Source: Saprospiraceae bacterium (GTDB lineage: Bacteria > Bacteroidota > Bacteroidia > Chitinophagales > Saprospiraceae). Taken from it: 36,533 bases of DNA. How positions within the stretch are numbered: the stretch's first letter is position 1; each line of letters opens with the position of its first letter. Positions 8,302 through 33,939 of the stretch are shown in pieces. Under the pieces are notes generated by a model. That model had not been told where the DNA came from. It made no database searches and worked only from the letters and a program-made list of their open reading frames with translations. Both the position numbers and the translations under genes were made by a program. Where the stretch lies: contig JAIYAP010000046.1 of assembly GCA_027488935.1 (NCBI GenBank), forward strand, positions 1 through 36,533, in the 5' to 3' direction.

Positions 8302-8426
8302 ACGCATAGAAAAGATTACTTTTTGCTATTATGAAAGATTAGTCCAGAACTATGTAATAATGGTGCAGGTGGTTGCGGGAGGGAACCGGAATATTTGTGT
8401 CCTCATCTGAAATATCTGCACCAAGT

Positions 8427-10766
8427 ATGCCGGAAAAAAATTCAAATTGCCAGGTTGGAGCAAACGCGCCCAAGTCCACCGAAAGACAACCCATTATCGA
8501 TGTTTTATGGATTTCGGATGGTACAACGGATGCGCCGTATGACCAGTTCGAAAGCTGGAATCAGGCTTTACCCATGCCGTTTGCATGCCGGGCCGTGGTT
8601 TGTTCATGGAGCGAAAGCATATTGGAAGGGCTAATGAGGCGCCCCAACGTACAGGCGGTGGTCATTTCGACGAATCATGTACAAAGGGCATTGGACTGTG
8701 CTGCCCAGGTCAATCATTTTCGGCCCGAGGTGGCGCTGTATTTGTTGAGCGGCGGCGCGCTCGATGAAATTTCGGACGAGGTATATCTGCGGTTTAACCG
8801 GATATTCTTTCAAGGCGCTCATTCAAGGGAATTGTATTTGGCAATTCAGCAAGGTGTAACTGCGCGCTTTGAGACGCCTTTTTTCAGCGCCTTGACCCGG
8901 TACAGCCGAAAACCTGTTGGGGTTTTCCACGCCATGCCCATTTCAAGGGGGAATTCCGTACAGCGCTCCGAATGGATGCAGGATTTTGAAGACTTTTATG
9001 GAGAAAACATATTAATGGCAGAATCTTCCGCCACGACAGGCGGACTGGATTCTCTGATGCAACCCAAAGGCGCCCTGAAAAAAGCCCAGGAGTTGGCGGC
9101 CGATGCCTATGGCGCCGAACAGACTTTTTTTGTGACCAACGGCACCTCCACCGCAAACAAAATTGTGTTGCAAGGCTTGTTGAAGCCCGGTGACCTGGTA
9201 TTGGTAAACCGCGATTGCCACAAGTCGCATCATTACGGAATCACGCATTGTGGCGTTTTGCCGGTGTACCTTGACGCCTGGCCTTTAGCCGAGCATGGAA
9301 TGTTTGGTGCAGTTCCGCTGGAGACCATTGTTGACAAGCTGCTGGAAATCAAAGCCGCCGGGATGTTGGACAGGGTCAAAATGCTGGTGCTGACAAACTG
9401 TACATTCGACGGGTTGGTGTACAACACAGCGCAAATCATGGAAGCGGTATTGGCCATCAAGCCGGATATTGTTTTCCTGTGGGATGAGGCATGGTTTGCA
9501 TTTGCACGGTTTAGCCCAATGCTACGGCACTGCACCGCCATGTGGTCTGCCGAAATGTTGGCCGAAAAATATACCAGCGAAGCATACGCCGCGCAATACC
9601 GCGCGCACATCAGCGTTTTGGGGCCAGAAGAAATGCCCGCTCTACCCGACCCACAGTTGGTACAAATCAGGGTTTACGCTACACAAAGTACCCACAAAAC
9701 CATGACGAGTTTTCGTCAGGGCTCGATGATCCATATCCGCGACGCGCAATTCCGGGGCCAGGTGTCTGCCATTTTTCAGGAAGCATACATGACGCATACC
9801 TCGACTTCGCCGAATTACCAGATTCTGGCGGCTTTGGATGCCGGCCGCCGCCAGGCCCACCTTGAAGGCTTTGCCCTGGTGCAGCAGGCCATAGAATTGG
9901 CGCAGGTGTTGCGCAACGGAATCCAAGCAAATCCTTTGTTGAGGCAGTATTTTGACGTGCTGGACGCTTCGGATTTGATTCCGGAGGAGCTTTGCTCCAA
10001 ACATCCCGGCGCACCAACGGAATCCGCTGCGGGATTTCGGTTGGATCCGACCAAAGTAACGCTTTCAGTAGGCAGGACTGGCATGGATGGCGACACGTTC
10101 AAAAACCTGTTGATGAATCGATTCCAGATTCAGGTAAACAAAACGTCCCGTAATTCGGTATTGCTCATGCTGCACATCGGCTCTACGCTGGATGCAATTG
10201 CCCAACTGATGCAGGCTTTGACGCAAATTGCGATTGAGCAAAACGCGTCTTTTCACAAAATGCCGCCAGAGGAGCGCCTACATTTTAATGCAAAAGTGGA
10301 TTCGCTGACCCGAAAATCAGCGCCTTTGCCGCTCTTCAGCAGGTTTCATCCTTTTTTTGTACCAGTCCCCAAACTTTCGGCTGGCGATTTGCGCAAAGCT
10401 TATTATTTTGCGTATGATGACGAAAACTGCCGCCACATTTCGCTAAAAGACGGTTTGAAAGAAATTTCCAGTGGTTGTGAATTAGTGTCTGCATCTTTCG
10501 TAACGCCTTATCCGCCGGGTTTTCCGGTACTGATGCCCGGACAAATTATCACCACAGCCATTTTGGAGTACCTTTTGACGCTTGATGTGCGAGAAATTCA
10601 TGGTTTCGAACCTGAACTCGGATTGAAAGTATTCCGAACGGACAAGTTAAATCCTTTGGCGTTGGAAGGCGGTCCGCAGCCATCTATTGGCTCGGTTGAC
10701 GCAATCAATAACCCTGTTTCCCTTGCAACCCACCCTGTTTTTGAACATACATACTCTTTATCATAA
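8427..10766 (+). CDS. PLP-dependent Orn/Lys/Arg decarboxylase-family enzyme
   Basis: 779 residues from the ATG at 8427; the frame extends to TTG 8373 but those codons look non-coding. About residues 1-150 form a receiver-like wing domain (IIDVLWISDGT, AVVISTNH, ALYLLSGG), as in the large inducible basic amino acid decarboxylases. The fold-type I PLP domain follows: FFVTNGTSTANKIVLQGLL, LVNRDCHKSHHYG (His stacking on PLP), FLWDEAW with D353 contacting the pyridine nitrogen, and the Schiff-base lysine K424 in TQSTHKTMTSFRQGSM. The C-terminal part carries the family signature TPYPPGFPVLMPGQ. Expected reaction: decarboxylation of arginine, lysine, ornithine or a related amino acid to an amine; the substrate cannot be read from sequence. 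It is 9 nt upstream of the ATP-grasp gene, almost certainly one operon. Confidence 0.88.
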   Translation: MPEKNSNCQVGANAPKSTERQPIIDVLWISDGTTDAPYDQFESWNQALPMPFACRAVVCSWSESILEGLMRRPNVQAVVISTNHVQRALDCAAQVNHFRPEVALYLLSGGALDEISDEVYLRFNRIFFQGAHSRELYLAIQQGVTARFETPFFSALTRYSRKPVGVFHAMPISRGNSVQRSEWMQDFEDFYGENILMAESSATTGGLDSLMQPKGALKKAQELAADAYGAEQTFFVTNGTSTANKIVLQGLLKPGDLVLVNRDCHKSHHYGITHCGVLPVYLDAWPLAEHGMFGAVPLETIVDKLLEIKAAGMLDRVKMLVLTNCTFDGLVYNTAQIMEAVLAIKPDIVFLWDEAWFAFARFSPMLRHCTAMWSAEMLAEKYTSEAYAAQYRAHISVLGPEEMPALPDPQLVQIRVYATQSTHKTMTSFRQGSMIHIRDAQFRGQVSAIFQEAYMTHTSTSPNYQILAALDAGRRQAHLEGFALVQQAIELAQVLRNGIQANPLLRQYFDVLDASDLIPEELCSKHPGAPTESAAGFRLDPTKVTLSVGRTGMDGDTFKNLLMNRFQIQVNKTSRNSVLLMLHIGSTLDAIAQLMQALTQIAIEQNASFHKMPPEERLHFNAKVDSLTRKSAPLPLFSRFHPFFVPVPKLSAGDLRKAYYFAYDDENCRHISLKDGLKEISSGCELVSASFVTPYPPGFPVLMPGQIITTAILEYLLTLDVREIHGFEPELGLKVFRTDKLNPLALEGGPQPSIGSVDAINNPVSLATHPVFEHTYSLS

Positions 10767-10775
10767 ACATCAGTT

Positions 10776-12200
10776 ATGGCTTCAGCAATGCCTTTGCGTC
10801 TTATCACCGACATCCGTCGTTTTTTCGAGGAAAATGAAACCCCGATATTTTTTATAAACAGCAGCGATTACAACATGATGGGCGCGCAGGCATGGATCGG
10901 GCAATTTTCATTCATTACAGTGATTGATTTCTACGAGGGGAACTTGCCCCAACTGTTTTGCCTGGCTCCGCACATGCCGGGGGGGTACTCCGCTATGACT
11001 TTAGAGGAAATGAATACCCGTTTGTTGAGCCATGACGAAGTGCGCAGGCACATCTTAAGCAAGGCAAGAGCAGGTAAAAAAAGCAAAGCAATGTTCCTGA
11101 TGTACGACGACACCAACGAACAACTGGCGCGCGCGTTGAATTTGGACATTTGCCATCCTGCCAACAAACTGAAAGCGTTTTTTGATGATAAAATCAATAC
11201 GGTTCGCTTGGCTGAACAGGCAAGCGTGCCCTCTGTACCCAACGTGTTGTCGGTCGTACATGATTACGCACATTTGCGCGCGGTTGCCGGCCACCTTGGC
11301 GAGCATTTGGTGATACAAAAGGCTTTTGGAGACTCGGGACGCACTACTTTTTTCATCTCAAATGAGTCGGATTTTGATGCTTGTTCCGAATTGCGCTCCA
11401 CAGATGGAGCGGAACTCAAAATCATGAAACAAATCAATTGCCATGCCGCCGCCATGGAGGGTTGCGCTACGGCAAGCGGCACCATAGTAGGCCCTTTGAT
11501 GAGTGAGGTGATTGGTTTTCGGGAGCTTACACCCCTGCGCGGAGCATGGTGTGGCAACGAACTGGGCCCCGGCATTTTTGATGTTTCTACGCTAGAAAAG
11601 GCGCGGCAGTACACCGAACGCATTGGTGATATGATGTATAAAATGGGGTACAAAGGTTACTTTGAGCTGGATTTTCTTATTGACCAATCTGATAGCACCC
11701 TTTACCTTGGAGAGATCAACCCCCGCCTCTCCGGTGCCAGCCCCCTGACCAATCAAAGCAGTTTTGCTCAAGCAAACGCGCCTTTGTATTTGTACCATCT
11801 ACTGGAATGGATGGACGTAGATTTTGAACTGGATGTGGCTGATTTGAACAAACGCTGGTTCGAGCACCTGGAAACGGAAACGTGGAGTCAAATGCTTGTC
11901 AAACACCTTGGTAAAAATGGCGCTGTAGTAGAATCGGTCCCCCGATCCGGCATTTGGAAGATGCAAGAAAACGGCACAATCGAATATGCCCGGCCTGCGG
12001 TACTCCGGAGTGAAATACGCAGTGATGAGGAAGCGCTCCTGCTGTGTGTACCAAAGGTTGGCGACTCGCTAAAGCAAGGACATGAACTGACCCGTATGCT
12101 GTTGCGCGGCAGGGTAATGGATGAATCATTTGAATTGACCACGCGGTCCAAAACCTGGATTGAAGCTGTTCGACAAACATTCACTACAAAAGAGGCGTAA
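10776..12200 (+). CDS. ATP-grasp ligase of carboxylate-amine type, partner of the decarboxylase
   Basis: 474 residues, ATG at 10776, nine nt after the decarboxylase stop codon. The ATP-grasp core is visible: LVIQKAFGDSGRTTF with K182 for ATP, and GYFELDFLID followed by TLYLGEINPRLSGASPLTN (E313, N315 as Mg-ATP ligands). Similar proteins are often labelled biotin carboxylase, but no carboxylase partner or biotin carrier is present. ATP-grasp enzymes activate a carboxylate as acyl phosphate and join it to an amine or thiol. With a decarboxylase next to it, a simple model is ligation of an amino acid or other acid to the amine made by the upstream enzyme. That pathway is inference. The N-terminal 100 residues (FFINSSDYNMMGAQAW) were not recognised. 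Confidence 0.8.
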   Translation: MASAMPLRLITDIRRFFEENETPIFFINSSDYNMMGAQAWIGQFSFITVIDFYEGNLPQLFCLAPHMPGGYSAMTLEEMNTRLLSHDEVRRHILSKARAGKKSKAMFLMYDDTNEQLARALNLDICHPANKLKAFFDDKINTVRLAEQASVPSVPNVLSVVHDYAHLRAVAGHLGEHLVIQKAFGDSGRTTFFISNESDFDACSELRSTDGAELKIMKQINCHAAAMEGCATASGTIVGPLMSEVIGFRELTPLRGAWCGNELGPGIFDVSTLEKARQYTERIGDMMYKMGYKGYFELDFLIDQSDSTLYLGEINPRLSGASPLTNQSSFAQANAPLYLYHLLEWMDVDFELDVADLNKRWFEHLETETWSQMLVKHLGKNGAVVESVPRSGIWKMQENGTIEYARPAVLRSEIRSDEEALLLCVPKVGDSLKQGHELTRMLLRGRVMDESFELTTRSKTWIEAVRQTFTTKEA

Positions 12201-14301: not shown

Positions 14302-14319
14302 AAAATTTGGATCCAGGTA

Positions 14320-14436
14320 GAAACCATTTTTGTGCAAAGTGTGGGCTGGTTACAAACGTTTTATATGCTGTATGCAATTCCGCTTATTTTTGTGGCGTTG
14401 TTGCCTGGGGTGCGGGATTTTTATCGGAAGGGGTGA
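14320..14436 (+). pseudogene. Relic 1: last 38 codons of a membrane protein gene
   Basis: The plus-strand frame reads ETIFVQSVGWLQ, then TFYMLYAIPLIFVALLPGV, then RDFYRKG and TGA. This is a hydrophobic helix with a basic tail, as at the end of a multi-helix permease. No start or upstream body of the gene is present; the lipocalin ends 18 nt before. A copy of the same length and orientation is at 19069-19185 (29 of 38 residues identical). It lies just beyond the 3' end of the SMP-30 gene (14503). Possibly the tail of an MFS-type transporter, but the family is not certain. Confidence 0.7.
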
Positions 14437-14502: not shown

Positions 14503-16164
14503 TTATTTTTGCGCAGCGGTTTTTCCGCCATGCAATGTCCTGATTTTGTAAAGCCCTGTATGCGCGGTAAGGTAGAGTGTTTTGCCATCGGCATCTCCCC
14601 AGGCCATATTTGCGGGGCGCTCTGGACCTACAATTTTACCGAGGTATTTTCCTTCTGAAGAAAGGACCCATACGCCCCCGGGAGCAGAAACGAAAAGGTT
14701 GCCCATTCGATCCACTTTGATACCATCGAGCGCCTCATCGCCGTCTGTAAAGCTGAAATCAAAGAATACCTTCCCGTTGAACAATTTGCCATCGCTGTCC
14801 ACCTCAAAGCGCCACAATGTTTTGGTGTGGTGGATATCCCGGATGTCCCAGTTAGAAACATAAAGATAACGCTCATCCGGGCTGAAAGCGATGCCATTCG
14901 GGCCGCCCAAATCGGTGCTAAGCAATTCCGTCTTTCCGTTTTTCACGCGGTAAACACCCTGATTTGGCGTTTCTTTTTTCGAATCGTTGTAGTTCTTGGG
15001 TAAGCCATAAGGTGGATCCGTAAAATATACGGTACCATCTGATTTTAACACCAGGTCATTGGGGCTGTTTAACTTTTGGCCTTGAATATTGTCGGAAAGC
15101 ACGGTAATCGGGCCTTTGGTTTCATGGCGAATTACCCTGCGATTGCCATGTTGACAAACAATCAGCCGACCCGCTGCATCGATGGCCAAGCCGTTGGAAC
15201 CTGGTTGATGGTACTCACCAATGTCAAAACCAGTATAGCCACTTTTCGTCATATACACAGAAACGTTTTGCGTAAAAGGCTCATAACGATAGATCACATT
15301 CGTGTTTGGATCGCTAAACAAAAGAAAACCATCTGGATGCCAAACCGGCCCTTCGGTAAACTGGAATCCGGTGGCTAATTTTTCCAGTTTTGCATCGGGG
15401 GCTATGACCTGGTCAAATGACTTTTCAATTTGCTCCAGATGCCCCAGGTTTTGAGCATCCGGATATGCGGAGGGCATTGATTTGTAAAAGTCAATTGTAG
15501 CAGATCGCAACCAAATATAATTCTCCGGCAAATCGGCAAAAGGCGCGTTTGCGCACAAAATTGCGATTTGAAATTGTTGTCCTGGTTTAGCATCCTGGGT
15601 TAGGAGTACCCGGTTGCGCGTGTTCCAACCAGAGATGGCTCCCCCGCCTGTTTGGCCTAAGGCCTTGGATAATTTGCCGTTGACAAAAACTTCGGAATAA
15701 TCATCTGCAACGATTTCAAGCATGGCCGTAGTACCAGGTGTTTGAAAACTTCCCAACTTCTCGGGTATGGTAATATTTATTCGAAACCATACGAAAGACA
15801 ATAATCCAGTTCCGCGTCGGGTTTCCAGGGTCGTTGGGTCGAGTATTTCCCAGGCCTTGTCATCAAAATTAGCCGCACTTGCCTTTGGCGACAATGCATG
15901 GGTATTGCTTGTAGCGCCCGTTGGATACAAAAGCAAAGGATCCTGCTGACTTGGACCAGGGCGCTTGAACGGCATTTCTACGATCTTGGCTTCCTGGAAT
16001 TTCCATTGGGCATTCAAAGCATTGACACCTAAACTTGTGCGAAGATCAGCAATAGCGGCCGCCTGCCCGATGGCCAAATCGCGGTGTTCCTGGGCGGAGG
16101 TTTTTGTCAAAAAGGGGGCGCTCAAAAGGAAGAGCAGTATTGGAATCTGTCTTAAATGTCTCAT
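14503..16164 (-). CDS. Exported SMP-30/gluconolactonase family protein with N-terminal jelly-roll domain
   Basis: 553 residues from the ATG at 16164. Signal peptide MRHLRQIPILLFLLSAPF...SAQ. About residues 50-230 are a beta-rich domain with galactose-binding-like features (FVWFRINITIPEKL, EIVADDYSEVFVNGKL). Residues of about 255-545 are the six-bladed SMP-30/LRE propeller: FTEGPVWHPDGFLLFSD (metal-ligand Glu), GSNGLAIDAAGRL, LNSPNDLVLKSDGTVYFTDPPYG (metal-ligand Asn), LGGPNGIAFSPDERYLYVSN, and DGDEALDGIKVDRMGN (catalytic Asp region). The family hydrolyses lactones with a divalent cation; this one would act in the periplasm or outside. It is the last gene of a four-gene minus-strand set, 44 nt after the GlcG-like gene. 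Confidence 0.87.
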   Translation of the reverse strand: MRHLRQIPILLFLLSAPFLTKTSAQEHRDLAIGQAAAIADLRTSLGVNALNAQWKFQEAKIVEMPFKRPGPSQQDPLLLYPTGATSNTHALSPKASAANFDDKAWEILDPTTLETRRGTGLLSFVWFRINITIPEKLGSFQTPGTTAMLEIVADDYSEVFVNGKLSKALGQTGGGAISGWNTRNRVLLTQDAKPGQQFQIAILCANAPFADLPENYIWLRSATIDFYKSMPSAYPDAQNLGHLEQIEKSFDQVIAPDAKLEKLATGFQFTEGPVWHPDGFLLFSDPNTNVIYRYEPFTQNVSVYMTKSGYTGFDIGEYHQPGSNGLAIDAAGRLIVCQHGNRRVIRHETKGPITVLSDNIQGQKLNSPNDLVLKSDGTVYFTDPPYGLPKNYNDSKKETPNQGVYRVKNGKTELLSTDLGGPNGIAFSPDERYLYVSNWDIRDIHHTKTLWRFEVDSDGKLFNGKVFFDFSFTDGDEALDGIKVDRMGNLFVSAPGGVWVLSSEGKYLGKIVGPERPANMAWGDADGKTLYLTAHTGLYKIRTLHGGKTAAQK

Positions 16165-16208
16165 GATTTAGATGTAAGGTGTTTGGAAGCGTTTGTTCTT
16201 GAAAAGGA

Positions 16209-16676
16209 TTATTTCAGCAAAGCGTCCGCTCCCGCAGTGGCAATTTCCCGATCCTGATCGGCCGATTTTGCGCCACTTACACCGATGGCTCCGACAATTT
16301 GGCCGTTGTAAAGAATCGGAACGCCTCCTTGTAGGAAGGTGTAACCAACCGTAATAAGCGCCTCACGACCGCCATTGATGGCGTCTTCAAGTTTTTTACT
16401 TTCAGCACGAAACAGAGCGGCAGTACGGGCTTTTTCGATCGAAACCGTAGCAGAAGCAGGGAAAGAACCGTCAAGCCGTTCAAACATAAGCAAGTGGCCG
16501 CCTGCATCTACCACGGCGATTGAGCCACCGGGCGATTGGTTTGCTTTGGCATAAGTGATGGCTGCATCTATCACTTTTTGAGCGCCATCGAGGGTAAGGT
16601 TTGTGGTTTGTACAACTTGTGCTTTGGCCTGAAAAGCAAGCATTAGCCCGGCAAGGAGCAAGAATATTGGTTTCAT
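16209..16676 (-). CDS. Exported GlcG/HbpS-family (DUF336) protein
   Basis: 155 residues from the ATG at 16676, which begins a signal peptide (MKPIFLLLAGLMLAFQAKAQ). An in-frame upstream extension to 16736 would cross an inverted repeat and add a hydrophilic tail, so it is rejected. Family signature: LDGAQKVIDAAITYAK, GGSIAVVDAGGHLLMFERLD, SIEKARTAALF, GGVPILYNGQIVGAIGVSG and a C-terminal DREIATAGADAL. HbpS of Streptomyces binds haem and senses redox stress; GlcG is found with glycolate oxidase genes. Here it is exported and sits between the YHS and lactonase genes. Haem or small-organic-ligand binding is inference. Confidence 0.88.
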   Translation of the reverse strand: MKPIFLLLAGLMLAFQAKAQVVQTTNLTLDGAQKVIDAAITYAKANQSPGGSIAVVDAGGHLLMFERLDGSFPASATVSIEKARTAALFRAESKKLEDAINGGREALITVGYTFLQGGVPILYNGQIVGAIGVSGAKSADQDREIATAGADALLK

Positions 16677-16701
16677 GTTTTTTTGTGAATTGGCGCAAAA
16701 C

Positions 16702-16741
16702 ATGTCTTGCTTATCCATTTTATGGAGTTTCAGCAAGACAT
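16702..16741. promoter_or_regulatory. Strong inverted repeat between the YHS and GlcG-like genes
   Basis: ATGTCTTGCT (16702-16711) and AGCAAGACAT (16732-16741) are perfect complements. Inside them TCCAT (16714-16718) pairs with ATGGA (16722-16726) around a TTT loop. On the minus strand it lies 25 nt upstream of the GlcG-like start codon. It could be an operator or an mRNA hairpin in the leader; there is no U-run, so a terminator is unlikely. Confidence 0.6.
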
Positions 16742-16773
16742 ATTCAGGCCTCTGTGAACGTTAGATTTTGAGT

Positions 16774-17685
16774 TTATTTTTGGGTCGCAGGTGCATCGTC
16801 GTAACCACTTTTCCCTTGAGGATATTTAGCGAGGAGGATGGACCAGTTTTGATCGGCTTTGGCTTTATTGCCAGGAATGTCTTTGCTAAAACTTGCTTTG
16901 GCGGATGGGGCACCATGCAACAAAAGATAACCATCTACGATTTGAAAACTCGAGGGGTCAATCGGGCGAAGCAAACCAAGACTCATTGCATAAGCACAGT
17001 AGCCTCCGTAAAGCGGTGCGAATTTGGTCGGATCAGCACTGAACATTTGCTTGTTTTCATTGCTGGTAAAGAAGTACAGACCGCCATTGTAAGGTTTTAC
17101 ATTTTTCTCATCTCCTTTAACTGCCTTTTGTTCAACCATATAGGAAACTACATCATAGCCTTCCGCCACGGCATCGACAGCATTCCGGTTTACCAGATTT
17201 TTCTTTTCATCCGCAGGAATAAAGGGTTTTCCACTACGCGAAAGCAGTTCTGGCCAGTATTTATCTGCTTTTTGGAGACTCATTGAATCGCCGTTCCAGC
17301 CGTCCAATGCGCGTTGGTTGTTTTGAAGAATGAGCCGTCCGTCCAAAAGCGCGAAAAACTCGACATGGATGGGAGCAAGGTGGCCCTGCGATACTGCATA
17401 CCCACAATAGCCGCCGTATTGCGGAGCATATTTTTCGGGATTTGCTGCAAACATCTTTTGGTGCTCAGCATTCGCAAACCAGTACACAGCGTCATGATAA
17501 GTGAACGTAAAACTGGCGCTACCTTTAACAGGCTTTTGGTCGGTAAAAAATGCAACCGGATCGTAGCCGTCCAGGATAATGCCCTTATCGTCAATGTTTA
17601 CAAGGTAAGTTTTGCCTTTCGGATCGGCATCACAAGCCGAATGGGACAGGGTAGCAAGCAAGGATAGGAGAAGGAGATACTTCAT
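16774..17685 (-). CDS. Exported protein with two tandem YHS domains
   Basis: 303 residues from the ATG at 17685, start of the signal peptide MKYLLLLSLLATLSHSACDA; SHSAC resembles a lipobox, so a lipid anchor is possible. Two YHS-like units follow. The first has LDGYDPVAFF, VYWFANAEHQKMFAANPEKY and APQYGGYCGYAVSQG. The second has AEGYDVVSYM, LYFFTSNENKQMFSADPTKF and APLYGGYCAYAMSLG. Each ends with a WxxLLxKYP-like tail (KYWPELLSRSG, NWSILLAKYP). YHS domains are small and often metal-linked, seen in copper or mercury handling and in monooxygenase-associated proteins. Each repeat here has a conserved Cys in GGYC. The gene has its own promoter-operator module, shared with the VOC gene upstream. 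Confidence 0.87.
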   Translation of the reverse strand: MKYLLLLSLLATLSHSACDADPKGKTYLVNIDDKGIILDGYDPVAFFTDQKPVKGSASFTFTYHDAVYWFANAEHQKMFAANPEKYAPQYGGYCGYAVSQGHLAPIHVEFFALLDGRLILQNNQRALDGWNGDSMSLQKADKYWPELLSRSGKPFIPADEKKNLVNRNAVDAVAEGYDVVSYMVEQKAVKGDEKNVKPYNGGLYFFTSNENKQMFSADPTKFAPLYGGYCAYAMSLGLLRPIDPSSFQIVDGYLLLHGAPSAKASFSKDIPGNKAKADQNWSILLAKYPQGKSGYDDAPATQK

Positions 17686-17732
17686 GTTTTTTTGTGTTGT
17701 TGTGCTTGAAAAATGATTTGAACTTATTGGCA

Positions 17733-17777
17733 CAAAGGTCTGGGAACGCTTTGGGGTGGTACGTTACCCACGTTACA
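17733..17777 (-). promoter_or_regulatory. Promoter and GTAAC tandem operator of the YHS gene
   Basis: On the minus strand the motif TGTAACGTGGGTAACGT (17761-17777) is a direct repeat of GTAACGT at 9-nt period. Exactly 21 nt on is the -7 box GACCTTTG (17733-17740), about 48 nt upstream of the YHS start. The VOC promoter at 18982-19026 has the same motif at the same distance. Confidence 0.65.
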
Positions 17778-17855
17778 TTAAAGAAAAAAGTAAAAAAACG
17801 AGGACAGATAAATTTTTCCTCCAAGGCGGAAAAGACATCCTTTCTGGAACAATGC

Positions 17856-18884
17856 TCAATTTTTGCTGCTACTCTTAGCACCTTTTAAAAGCAATGCATG
17901 TCCGTCGGGATCCCGGAGCATTATGCAATCGACCGAATCCAAAGGAACCACCGTGGCAGAACCTTTGGAATACCCTTGTTTTTCCATTTTTTGAAGTACG
18001 GCAGGCAAATCATCCACCCATAATTCGGTATGATAGTGCCATAAGTCGGTCGTACGGCTATCCGTTGGGATGATTCTGCCCCCTGGAGGGGCAATATATC
18101 GCAGAAATTCTACGCCAAAACCTGTCGCTGCATGCAATTCATTAATGTCGAGCCGCGCGCCAAATACCTGGTTCAGGTGTTCCTGTTCCGGGCCATAATT
18201 TTCTGAATGCCCGCCCCAGTCCAATCCCAAAGCATCGCGGTAAAAAGCCATGCTCTGTTTGGTGTCAGAAATAGCAATCGCGGTATGGTCAATCCCTAAA
18301 AACACCCCTGCTTGCCCGTCCTTGTTTTGCGTCTGCCATTTTACATTGCCTTTACCAGGCGGAAACCAGATTAGTTCGAGGTTGTGTCCTTCTGGATCGC
18401 GAAAATAAAAAGCCCGAATACCGGCTGCATTCGGTAAATAATCCGGCAGCGTTTCCGGAAAAGTAGAAACGTGCTGCACCTGATTGCGCAACAGTTTTTG
18501 ATAAGCCGAATCCATATCCGCTACTACAATTGCAAGATGCTGAAACCACAAATCGTTGCTACGCGTATCGGCAGGAACGGGCCTTCCTTCGCTTGCTCCG
18601 TCAAAGTCCATCAACTGAATCTGTTCTTTACCAAGTTGTAGGGTAGCAATCCGAACAGTGGCCGTTTTTTCAGTCAATCCAAACAGTTTTGCCACCGCTG
18701 CGCCTTTTTTTGTTTCTACTTTAATTTTTTTAAAATCAAGGATTTGTACAAAAAAATCAACTTCACGATCGAGGTCGCCAACGGTAATGCTCACCGCAGA
18801 GACGTCCGTGACTTTTTGGGAATAGCCGATGGTGGAATGGTAAAAAAGCAGCAATAGTGTTGCTGAAAGCGCTAATGGTTTCAT
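17856..18884 (-). CDS. Exported protein with two VOC (glyoxalase/dioxygenase-fold) domains
   Basis: 342 residues from the ATG at 18884, where the signal peptide MKPLALSATLLLLFYHSTIG starts. The frame stays open upstream to 19076, but that stretch contains the promoter and is not translated. Domain 1 (about 25-170): VSAVSITVGDLDREVDFFVQ, FQHLAIVVADMDSAYQKL, FYFRDPEGHNLELIWFP. Domain 2 (about 190-335): LGIDHTAIAISDTKQSMAFY, LWHYHTELWVDDLPAVLQKM, CIMLRDPDGHALLL. The HxA...E pattern of VOC metal sites is present. VOC enzymes include glyoxalases, extradiol dioxygenases and epimerases; export is unusual. It is the first gene of the four-gene set and has its own promoter. Confidence 0.87.
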   Translation of the reverse strand: MKPLALSATLLLLFYHSTIGYSQKVTDVSAVSITVGDLDREVDFFVQILDFKKIKVETKKGAAVAKLFGLTEKTATVRIATLQLGKEQIQLMDFDGASEGRPVPADTRSNDLWFQHLAIVVADMDSAYQKLLRNQVQHVSTFPETLPDYLPNAAGIRAFYFRDPEGHNLELIWFPPGKGNVKWQTQNKDGQAGVFLGIDHTAIAISDTKQSMAFYRDALGLDWGGHSENYGPEQEHLNQVFGARLDINELHAATGFGVEFLRYIAPPGGRIIPTDSRTTDLWHYHTELWVDDLPAVLQKMEKQGYSKGSATVVPLDSVDCIMLRDPDGHALLLKGAKSSSKN

Positions 18885-18981
18885 CCAGTTAAAGTGTAAA
18901 TTCAGGTTAAAGAATGATCCGGTGTGGACCTTGAAATACTTAGACTTATGCAGGGTTTTTCCTCCTTGTAATAAGCTGGGA

Positions 18982-19026
18982 CAAAAGTATGGGCAGGAAT
19001 TTGCGCTGGATGTTACCGAGGTTACA
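18982..19026 (-). promoter_or_regulatory. Promoter and GTAAC tandem operator of the VOC gene
   Basis: On the minus strand TGTAACCTCGGTAACAT (19010-19026) repeats GTAAC at 9-nt period, and 21 nt on is a perfect Bacteroidota -7 box TACTTTTG (18982-18989). The leader to the VOC start is about 98 nt. It corresponds base for base in spacing to 17733-17777. Confidence 0.7.
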
Positions 19027-19068
19027 GTTGGGAAAAAAGGAGTTTGTTGTGCATATTTGAAAACCGAA

Positions 19069-19185
19069 GAGACCATTTATGAGCAAAGCACTGGCGGGTT
19101 ACAAACCTTTTACGTATTTTATGCAATTCCGCTTATTTTTGTAGCGTTGTTGCCTGGGGTGCGGATGGGATATCGAAAAGTTTAG
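19069..19185 (+). pseudogene. Relic 2: last 38 codons of the same membrane protein gene
   Basis: Reads ETIYEQSTGGLQ, then TFYVFYAIPLIFVALLPGV, then RMGYRKV and TAG. Same length (117 nt) and orientation as relic 1 at 14320-14436, 4749 nt away. An open frame continues back to 18922, but that part overlaps the VOC promoter and has no counterpart beside relic 1, so it is probably chance. The relic ends 32 nt before the next gene. Confidence 0.7.
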
Positions 19186-33598: not shown

Positions 33599-33656
33599 TT
33601 GCTATGTGATAAATTAATTATGGGATAAAAGTACTATGCATTGTTTACAAATAAAA

Positions 33657-33746
33657 GGGTTCCACAGAGAAGCTTGGAGGTACGGAGGTACGCGGAGAAA
33701 AACTCTGTGTAACTCCGTCCCTCTGCGAATCTCTGTGGAATTCCTT
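33657..33746. repeat. Hairpin repeat of the TTCCACGGAG family, copy B
   Basis: The left arm begins GGGTTCCACAGAGAAGCTTG (33657-33676) and pairs with the right arm ending TCTCTGTGGAA (33730-33740). About 38-nt arms surround a short A-rich loop. Copy C repeats it 97 nt further on. Confidence 0.85.
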
Positions 33747-33753
33747 AAAAAAA

Positions 33754-33845
33754 GGGTTCCACGGAGAAGCTTGGAGGTATGGAGTTTCGCGGAGAAAAAC
33801 TCCGTGTAACTCCGTCCCTCTGAGCTTCTCCGTGGAACCCCTTAA
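33754..33845. repeat. Hairpin repeat of the TTCCACGGAG family, copy C
   Basis: GGGTTCCACGGAGAAGCTTG (33754-33773) pairs with CTTCTCCGTGGAACCC (33825-33840). It has the same layout as copy B at a 97-nt period. The arms of copy C match each other better than those of B. Confidence 0.85.
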
Positions 33846-33939
33846 AAAGCCGCATCCCGGAGGGACAAGTAGTTCTTCCCTCAAAACTTGCTAAACTCCC
33901 ATTTTCTCCCCACTTTTGCCCTCAAATTCAGGCATCACC

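Follow-up and report, generated by a model that had tools for sequence, protein, structure and literature searches.

The 36,533-nucleotide stretch of Saprospiraceae bacterium DNA analysed here (contig JAIYAP010000046.1, hereafter the window) harbors a module of four minus-strand genes in a row, coding for a VOC protein, a tandem YHS protein, a GlcG/HbpS-like protein and an SMP-30/gluconolactonase-like protein. Our tentative reading, to which we give a little less than an even chance, is that these genes form the exported arm of a larger carbohydrate-oxidation cluster, and that this block has likely moved in the window genome. This is suggested by the family matches and nearest solved structures of the proteins, by the clustering of the genes in 13 of 24 VOC loci, by a YHS-GlcG fusion, by the presence of VOC in all seven genomes of the order with a full-length SMP-30, by a GMC flavin dehydrogenase gene near VOC in 22 of the 24 loci, by hydrophobic N-termini on 22 of the 24 VOC proteins, and by a GMC-SDR junction on contig C83 of the same genome. 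The module spans positions 14503 to 18884 (numbers prefixed L, G and C denote loci, genomes and contigs):

17856..18884, minus strand: predicted exported two-domain VOC protein of 342 amino acids, first gene of the module; begins MKPLALSATLLLLFYHSTIGYSQ
16774..17685, minus strand: predicted exported tandem YHS protein of 303 amino acids, with two YHS_seleno-type domains and Cys94 and Cys230 in YGGYC
16209..16676, minus strand: predicted exported GlcG/HbpS-like protein of 155 amino acids
14503..16164, minus strand: predicted exported SMP-30/gluconolactonase-like protein of 553 amino acids, whose N-terminus bears an additional beta-rich domain of about 200 amino acids

Organization of the module and export signals

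The initial annotation of this DNA, made from the sequence alone, had proposed four minus-strand genes in this order, each with a signal peptide, and both the family matches and the hydrophobic N-termini bear this out. A hydrophobic stretch is present at each of the four N-termini (best 12-residue Kyte-Doolittle mean 2.07 to 2.85), suggesting that all four products carry putative export-type N-termini. The YHS protein may be a lipoprotein, as judged by eye from the reading LATLSHSAC. The left end of the originally proposed span (14503 to 19026) stands, but its right end overruns the likely VOC start: the VOC open frame extends to 19076, and the module is delimited at 18884 because the ATG at this position is the start that gives a signal peptide. 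From the chosen starts, the intergenic gaps are of 170 (VOC-YHS), 97 (YHS-GlcG) and 44 (GlcG-SMP-30) bases. Scans for sigma-70-type promoters and for terminators gave no clear excess over shuffled sequences (5 against 8.1, standard deviation 3.3, and 10 against 7.1, standard deviation 3.4, respectively), and a scan for Bacteroidota-type promoters found two sites, both within the SMP-30 gene. The putative operon structure is thus based on spacing and conservation.

Distribution across genomes

A scan of named genomes for VOC identified 12 relatives, in one metagenome-assembled genome (MAG) each of Saprospiraceae, Cytophagales and Thermoanaerobaculia, in two Bacteroidetes MAGs, in six MAGs of other Acidobacteriota, and in Fibrella aquatilis HMF5036 (L059). 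Searches with the VOC alignment at E <= 1e-30 indicate a sporadic distribution: the gene is carried by 11 of the 396 genomes searched in the window's order, the window genome being one of the 11, by 2 of 395 in the class (that of the window and G390) and by 1 of 42 in the order to which G390 belongs (G390 itself). The 24 VOC loci considered in all are the window, L056-L067, L075 and L077-L086.

GlcG and a full-length SMP-30, i.e. one with the extra N-terminal domain, are present in 13 of these loci, always together and with GlcG next before SMP-30 (the window, L056, L057, L058, L059, L064, L075/L093, L079, L080, L081, L082, L083/L092 and L086); the SMP-30 gene runs off the end of the contig or locus in L057 and L075, and is whole in L093. 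The set occurs in both Bacteroidota and Acidobacteriota records. In 12 of the 13, the gene directly preceding GlcG is YHS; in L064 the sequence before GlcG falls outside the examined stretch, and the YHS gene adjoins VOC. A YHS gene of any kind is found in 17 of the 24 loci, and the tandem form in seven (the window, L075, L079 in part, L080, L081, L082 and L092; the start of the L079 gene lies outside the examined stretch, and the signal check covered loci other than L092 and L093). The compact same-strand order VOC-YHS-GlcG-SMP-30 is present in the window, L056, L057, L058, L059, L080 and L086 (7/24); in L056, L057 and L086, one or two further genes follow VOC. Elsewhere GlcG and SMP-30 are paired at a distance from VOC: 6-8 kb on the same strand (L064 and L075), about 6-7 kb on the opposite strand (L079, L081 and L082) or about 13 kb, again on the opposite strand (the L083 genome). 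A gene resembling carboxymuconolactone decarboxylase (CMD/AhpD) lies between VOC and YHS at L057:11216-11755, L077:14198-14731 and L086:11061-11594, and is not present in the window; the calls for L057 and L086 are Pfam matches, and that for L077 is by similar sequence start.

The full-length SMP-30 closely follows VOC. In the same order, 19 of the 396 genomes match SMP-30 at E <= 1e-80 and seven of them over the full length; all seven fall among the 11 VOC genomes (hypergeometric P about 1e-12, a value that ignores the kinship of genomes; each genome was scored on its best 3 candidates for SMP-30 or best 5 for VOC). In a draw of 316 genomes across the phylum, 57 match at E <= 1e-60, only the window's own at full length. 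The conserved clustering in distant genera that had been named as a check of a functional unit is therefore found, also in Acidobacteriota records and mostly with export-type N-termini, although the compact order is limited to the seven loci above.

The contig of L057, from the Thermoanaerobaculia MAG, has a coverage of 3.4 and a gene order that closely follows L056 and C83, and its GMC is 78% identical to that of the window genome. L057 is possibly misbinned, in which case the evidence for a full set in Acidobacteriota would rest on L064.

The VOC protein

The two glyoxalase domains of the VOC protein match PF00903 (73.2 bits, cut-off 20.6) and PF13669 (52.3 bits, cut-off 27). Its predicted model (mean pLDDT 81, pTM 0.83) most resembles plant glyoxalase I and GLOD4 in fold; dioxygenases are matched as well. 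An alignment (A1) of proteins from 12 of the 24 loci, leaving out L067 (frame broken), L075 and L077-L086, shows four invariant residues, H116 and E170 in the first domain, H200 and E259 in the second; alignments with ChaP cover the first three of these only. The metal site of glyoxalase I is assembled from two half-sites (His/Glu/His/Glu, from both domains), so that a single site of this kind would be expected between the VOC domains, and the four invariant residues would fit a glyoxalase-I-like site shared between them. Type I extradiol dioxygenases carry a His-His-Glu site inside the C-terminal domain. H200 and H283 are invariant in the 12 aligned proteins, and the Glu position (Leu332 in the window) is occupied by Glu in L066 only. 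An extradiol dioxygenase was therefore rejected, as its third ligand is absent in 11 of the 12, window included. The initial annotation had allowed for oxidation or rearrangement of a cyclic compound by VOC; the former, if by an extradiol dioxygenase, finds no support, and the missing Glu together with the four invariant residues makes a rearrangement likelier.

The hydrophobic N-terminus is present on 22 of the 24 VOC proteins (21 by score and L077 by reading). The stretches around the VOC genes of L078 and L085, which are without it, are also without YHS, GlcG and SMP-30. In a genome of the window's own genus (L086:9825-10465), the two VOC domains are separated by a 15-bp repeat (NHKPS) present in about 43 in-frame copies, and a short NQKPS repeat occupies the same inter-domain linker in L057.

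The SMP-30 protein

The SMP-30 protein matches the SGL family PF08450 (144.3 bits, cut-off 26.3), and no Pfam model is matched by its extra N-terminal domain at E values up to 1. In the predicted model (mean pLDDT 76, pTM 0.66) the best fold matches of the propeller are the gluconolactonases 3e5z (target TM 0.87) and 3dr2 (0.85). E271, N369, N423 and D480 are invariant in five aligned proteins (alignment A3, 5 of the 13), and we take them to be the Glu/Asn/Asn/Asp metal site of SMP-30, with positions as in regucalcin. Lactone hydrolysis would be the best-founded step of the route proposed below, with a putative substrate.

The YHS and GlcG proteins

The YHS protein matches NF041384 (235.8 bits, cut-off 70) and PF04945 (41.5 bits, cut-off 30.3), each over two stretches. 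Selenocysteine, encoded by an in-frame TGA, occurs in some NF041384 members only; the window protein has none, carrying Cys94 and Cys230 and no internal stop (alignment A4 holds 10 of 20 YHS frames). Two YHS paralogues elsewhere have one in-frame TGA each (G158:C9:401706-402185, L033, and G125:C46:39089-39493, L020). A search of the YHS profile against solved structures found no informative relative, the best matches falling within two very long chains, named cilia protein 276 and adenylate kinase 9.

The GlcG/HbpS-like protein matches PF03928 (114.7 bits, cut-off 25). The solved relatives of its profile (alignment A2, 5 of the 13) are 2a2l, listed as unknown and the best match, EfgA (1.7e-15), HbpS, NahX and others. 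YHS and GlcG form a single fused protein in L057, and this fusion and their constant adjacency show a partnership, not an activity.

Association with a probable carbohydrate-oxidation cluster

In 22 of the 24 loci, VOC has a gene for a GMC flavin dehydrogenase (oxidoreductase) at a distance of at most about 2.2 kb; the exceptions are the window and L067, whose contig starts at VOC. The nearest PDB relatives of this GMC are the FAD (flavin adenine dinucleotide) glucose dehydrogenase 6a2u (5.2e-30) and fructose dehydrogenase. Among the 24 regions, many of which end early, further cluster genes code for a GH63/MGH1-like hydrolase (16), an aquaporin-type channel (15), a glycogen-debranching enzyme (13), a glucose-1-dehydrogenase-like SDR (11) and a ferric-reductase/Rieske protein (10), and a zinc glucose-dehydrogenase-like gene is present in L062, L063, L064 and L075. 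Since nearly every VOC gene is near a GMC in a carbohydrate-type cluster, the four genes are not self-standing. The joint extracytoplasmic pathway first proposed for them thus retains its recurrence and a fitting lactone step by SMP-30, but not its independence, as the GMC setting had been missed.

Probable relocation of the four genes

The GMC cluster of the window genome is found on contig C83, where the GMC shares 78% identity with that of L056. On C83 the SDR gene follows GMC after about 30 bases and the four module genes are absent from this junction, whereas they sit between GMC and SDR in L056, L058, L059, L080 and L086. In L077, which like L086 belongs to the window's genus, VOC and YHS stay between GMC and SDR, and GlcG and SMP-30 are not there. 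From this comparison of junctions we infer that the four genes probably left the GMC-SDR junction and were reinserted elsewhere. Between the window genome and L056/L086, identities are 76% for SMP-30, 85-89% for GlcG, 78-80% for GMC, 89-90% for SDR and 67-72% for VOC (over one half of the protein in L086). They are 41-45% for YHS, which is tandem in the window and single in L056 and L086; the window tandem is closest to those of L075 and L081 (46-47%).

The module is flanked by two direct repeats:

14319..14415, plus strand: left copy of a direct repeat of 97 nt (the two copies 85% identical), a remnant of a small membrane-protein gene at its 3' end
19068..19164, plus strand: right copy of this 97-nt repeat, upstream of the module

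Longer relatives of this small membrane-protein gene, 37-38% identical, are present in L088 and L089. A recent target-site duplication was rejected as the origin of the repeats: the copies are 97 nt long, only 85% identical, and read as a gene end. Further along the window, at positions 33653-33848, a 97-bp unit occurs twice in tandem, the copies being 88% alike. On the other side of the module (8373-12200), an Orn/Lys/Arg decarboxylase-like gene is followed by a same-strand gene of 474 amino acids, ATP-grasp-like by eye.

Proposed function and alternatives

In the proposed route, glucosides or glucans would be cut to sugars, which the dehydrogenases may oxidise to lactones or keto-sugars. Outside the cytoplasm, the putative VOC metalloenzyme would rearrange or disarm a reactive carbonyl sugar and the SMP-30 propeller would hydrolyse a sugar lactone to the acid, while YHS and GlcG could be a metal-, haem- or small-ligand-binding pair serving or sensing this lactone and carbonyl chemistry. 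The four genes would have moved as a block from between GMC and SDR to a new site flanked by direct repeats. The families, the hydrophobic N-termini, the recurrent clustering, the fusion, the absence of the four genes from the C83 junction and the intact lactonase residues are observed; we infer, in this scheme, the move, the substrates, the order of steps, the role of the YHS-GlcG pair, and the way in which exported enzymes would receive their substrate from a GMC without signal.

Several observations weigh against this exported arm. The hydrophobic signal is present in none of the 22 GMC N-termini, as read from starts set by alignment to the window genome's own GMC; the dehydrogenase and the exported enzymes thus appear to be in different compartments. 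In the periplasmic FAD-glucose-dehydrogenase pathway, the GMC subunit leaves the cytoplasm either on a signal of its own or together with a partner; no such partner was found in the part of the cluster neighbours that was scanned. The VOC proteins of L078 (9913-10932) and L085 (9539-10471) have no export signal. Moreover, GlcG and SMP-30 were not found in the examined stretch of 11 of the 24 VOC loci (in L060, L062, L065 and L067 little of the contig extends beyond VOC on at least one side), and searches of the whole genomes of four VOC carriers of the order, G678, G322, G702 and G793, gave no full-length SMP-30 match, so that the arm is dispensable. The putative VOC metal site is read from the protein sequence and from the ligands of glyoxalase I, and the substrates of the set are putative. 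Finally, the four genes need not simply have moved as one intact block: the window's tandem YHS, with its nearest counterparts in L075 and L081, indicates a separate history for the YHS gene at the least, and this difference, together with the uneven identities, suggests that the four may not share a single one.

An unlikely but serious alternative is periplasmic damage control, in which the exported arm would clear by-product carbonyls and lactones, with a glyoxalase-like VOC, a GlcG that binds an aldehyde in the manner of EfgA, and SMP-30 opening lactones. It would agree with the resemblance of the VOC model to glyoxalase I and GLOD4, with the CMD/AhpD-like gene between VOC and YHS in L057 and L086, and with the match of the GlcG profile to EfgA, described as a formaldehyde sensor (PMC8153426). 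However, EfgA is one of several GlcG matches of similar strength, the best being 2a2l, and a dedicated sugar chemistry is suggested by the repeated association with GMC and with enzymes of the glucan type.

We consider it less probable still that YHS and GlcG are the core of the set, as a haem/metal pair maturing or supplying an extracytoplasmic redox enzyme, with VOC and SMP-30 as clients and not steps of a sequential pathway. Their fusion, the haem-binding protein among the solved relatives of GlcG and the ferric-reductase/Rieske gene of 10 regions are consistent with such a role, whereas haem binding is putative, the relatives of GlcG including other-named proteins (EfgA and NahX), and the YHS profile has no informative solved relative. 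A chance row of four common exported families was rejected as very improbable: ordinary members do occur apart, the other three families being absent within flanks of up to 1.5 kb at 29 YHS, 17 propeller-only SMP-30 and 9 further SMP-30 loci, but the same gene order recurs in distant records, with one fusion and seven out of seven full-length SMP-30 genomes carrying VOC among the 396. The random scatter of homologues, named at the outset as evidence against a unit, is thus true of the broad families and not of these VOC and full-length SMP-30 orthologues.

Returning to the proposed exported arm of a sugar-oxidation cluster, literature searches aimed at the gene set found no description of it by title, most subscription papers being beyond the search. 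The families are known, and the recurring set appears undescribed within the literature searched. A bolder formulation, which we regard as doubtful, would be an extracytoplasmic sugar-oxidation route of Bacteroidota and Acidobacteriota not described before, with an exported VOC metalloisomerase, and a domain-extended lactonase acting on oxidised sugars alongside a YHS-GlcG redox or ligand pair, which may be fused into one protein, the arm being movable as a block. The set ties YHS and GlcG, once fused, to a lactonase, a glyoxalase-like enzyme and a sugar-oxidation cluster, and two families whose roles are mostly open thereby gain a concrete, testable setting outside the cytoplasm.

Comparison with known systems

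The window VOC shares its two-domain fold with the two-domain glyoxalase I of Zea mays (6bnz) and human GLOD4, and its four invariant residues would fit one His/Glu/His/Glu site; it differs in its predicted export and in an identity of about 15%. The SMP-30 protein has the propeller of the exported gluconolactonase XC5397 of Xanthomonas campestris (3dr2) and of the putative gluconolactonase 3e5z, with the metal-site residues kept, but possesses an extra N-terminal domain of about 200 amino acids and sits in a recurring gene set. The YHS protein scores far above the curated cut-off of the YHS (seleno)protein family NF041384, from which it is set apart by its tandem form, shared by 7 of the 24 loci, and by Cys at the conserved YGGYC position. 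The GlcG protein belongs to the same family (PF03928) as HbpS, EfgA and NahX, whereas GlcG of the window type is partnered with YHS, and once fused to it. Lastly, the FAD-dependent glucose dehydrogenase and the large subunit of fructose dehydrogenase (6a2u and 7w2j) are the nearest solved relatives of the cluster's GMC; unlike in these systems, the cluster GMC shows no signal, and that of the window genome lies on contig C83, outside the window.

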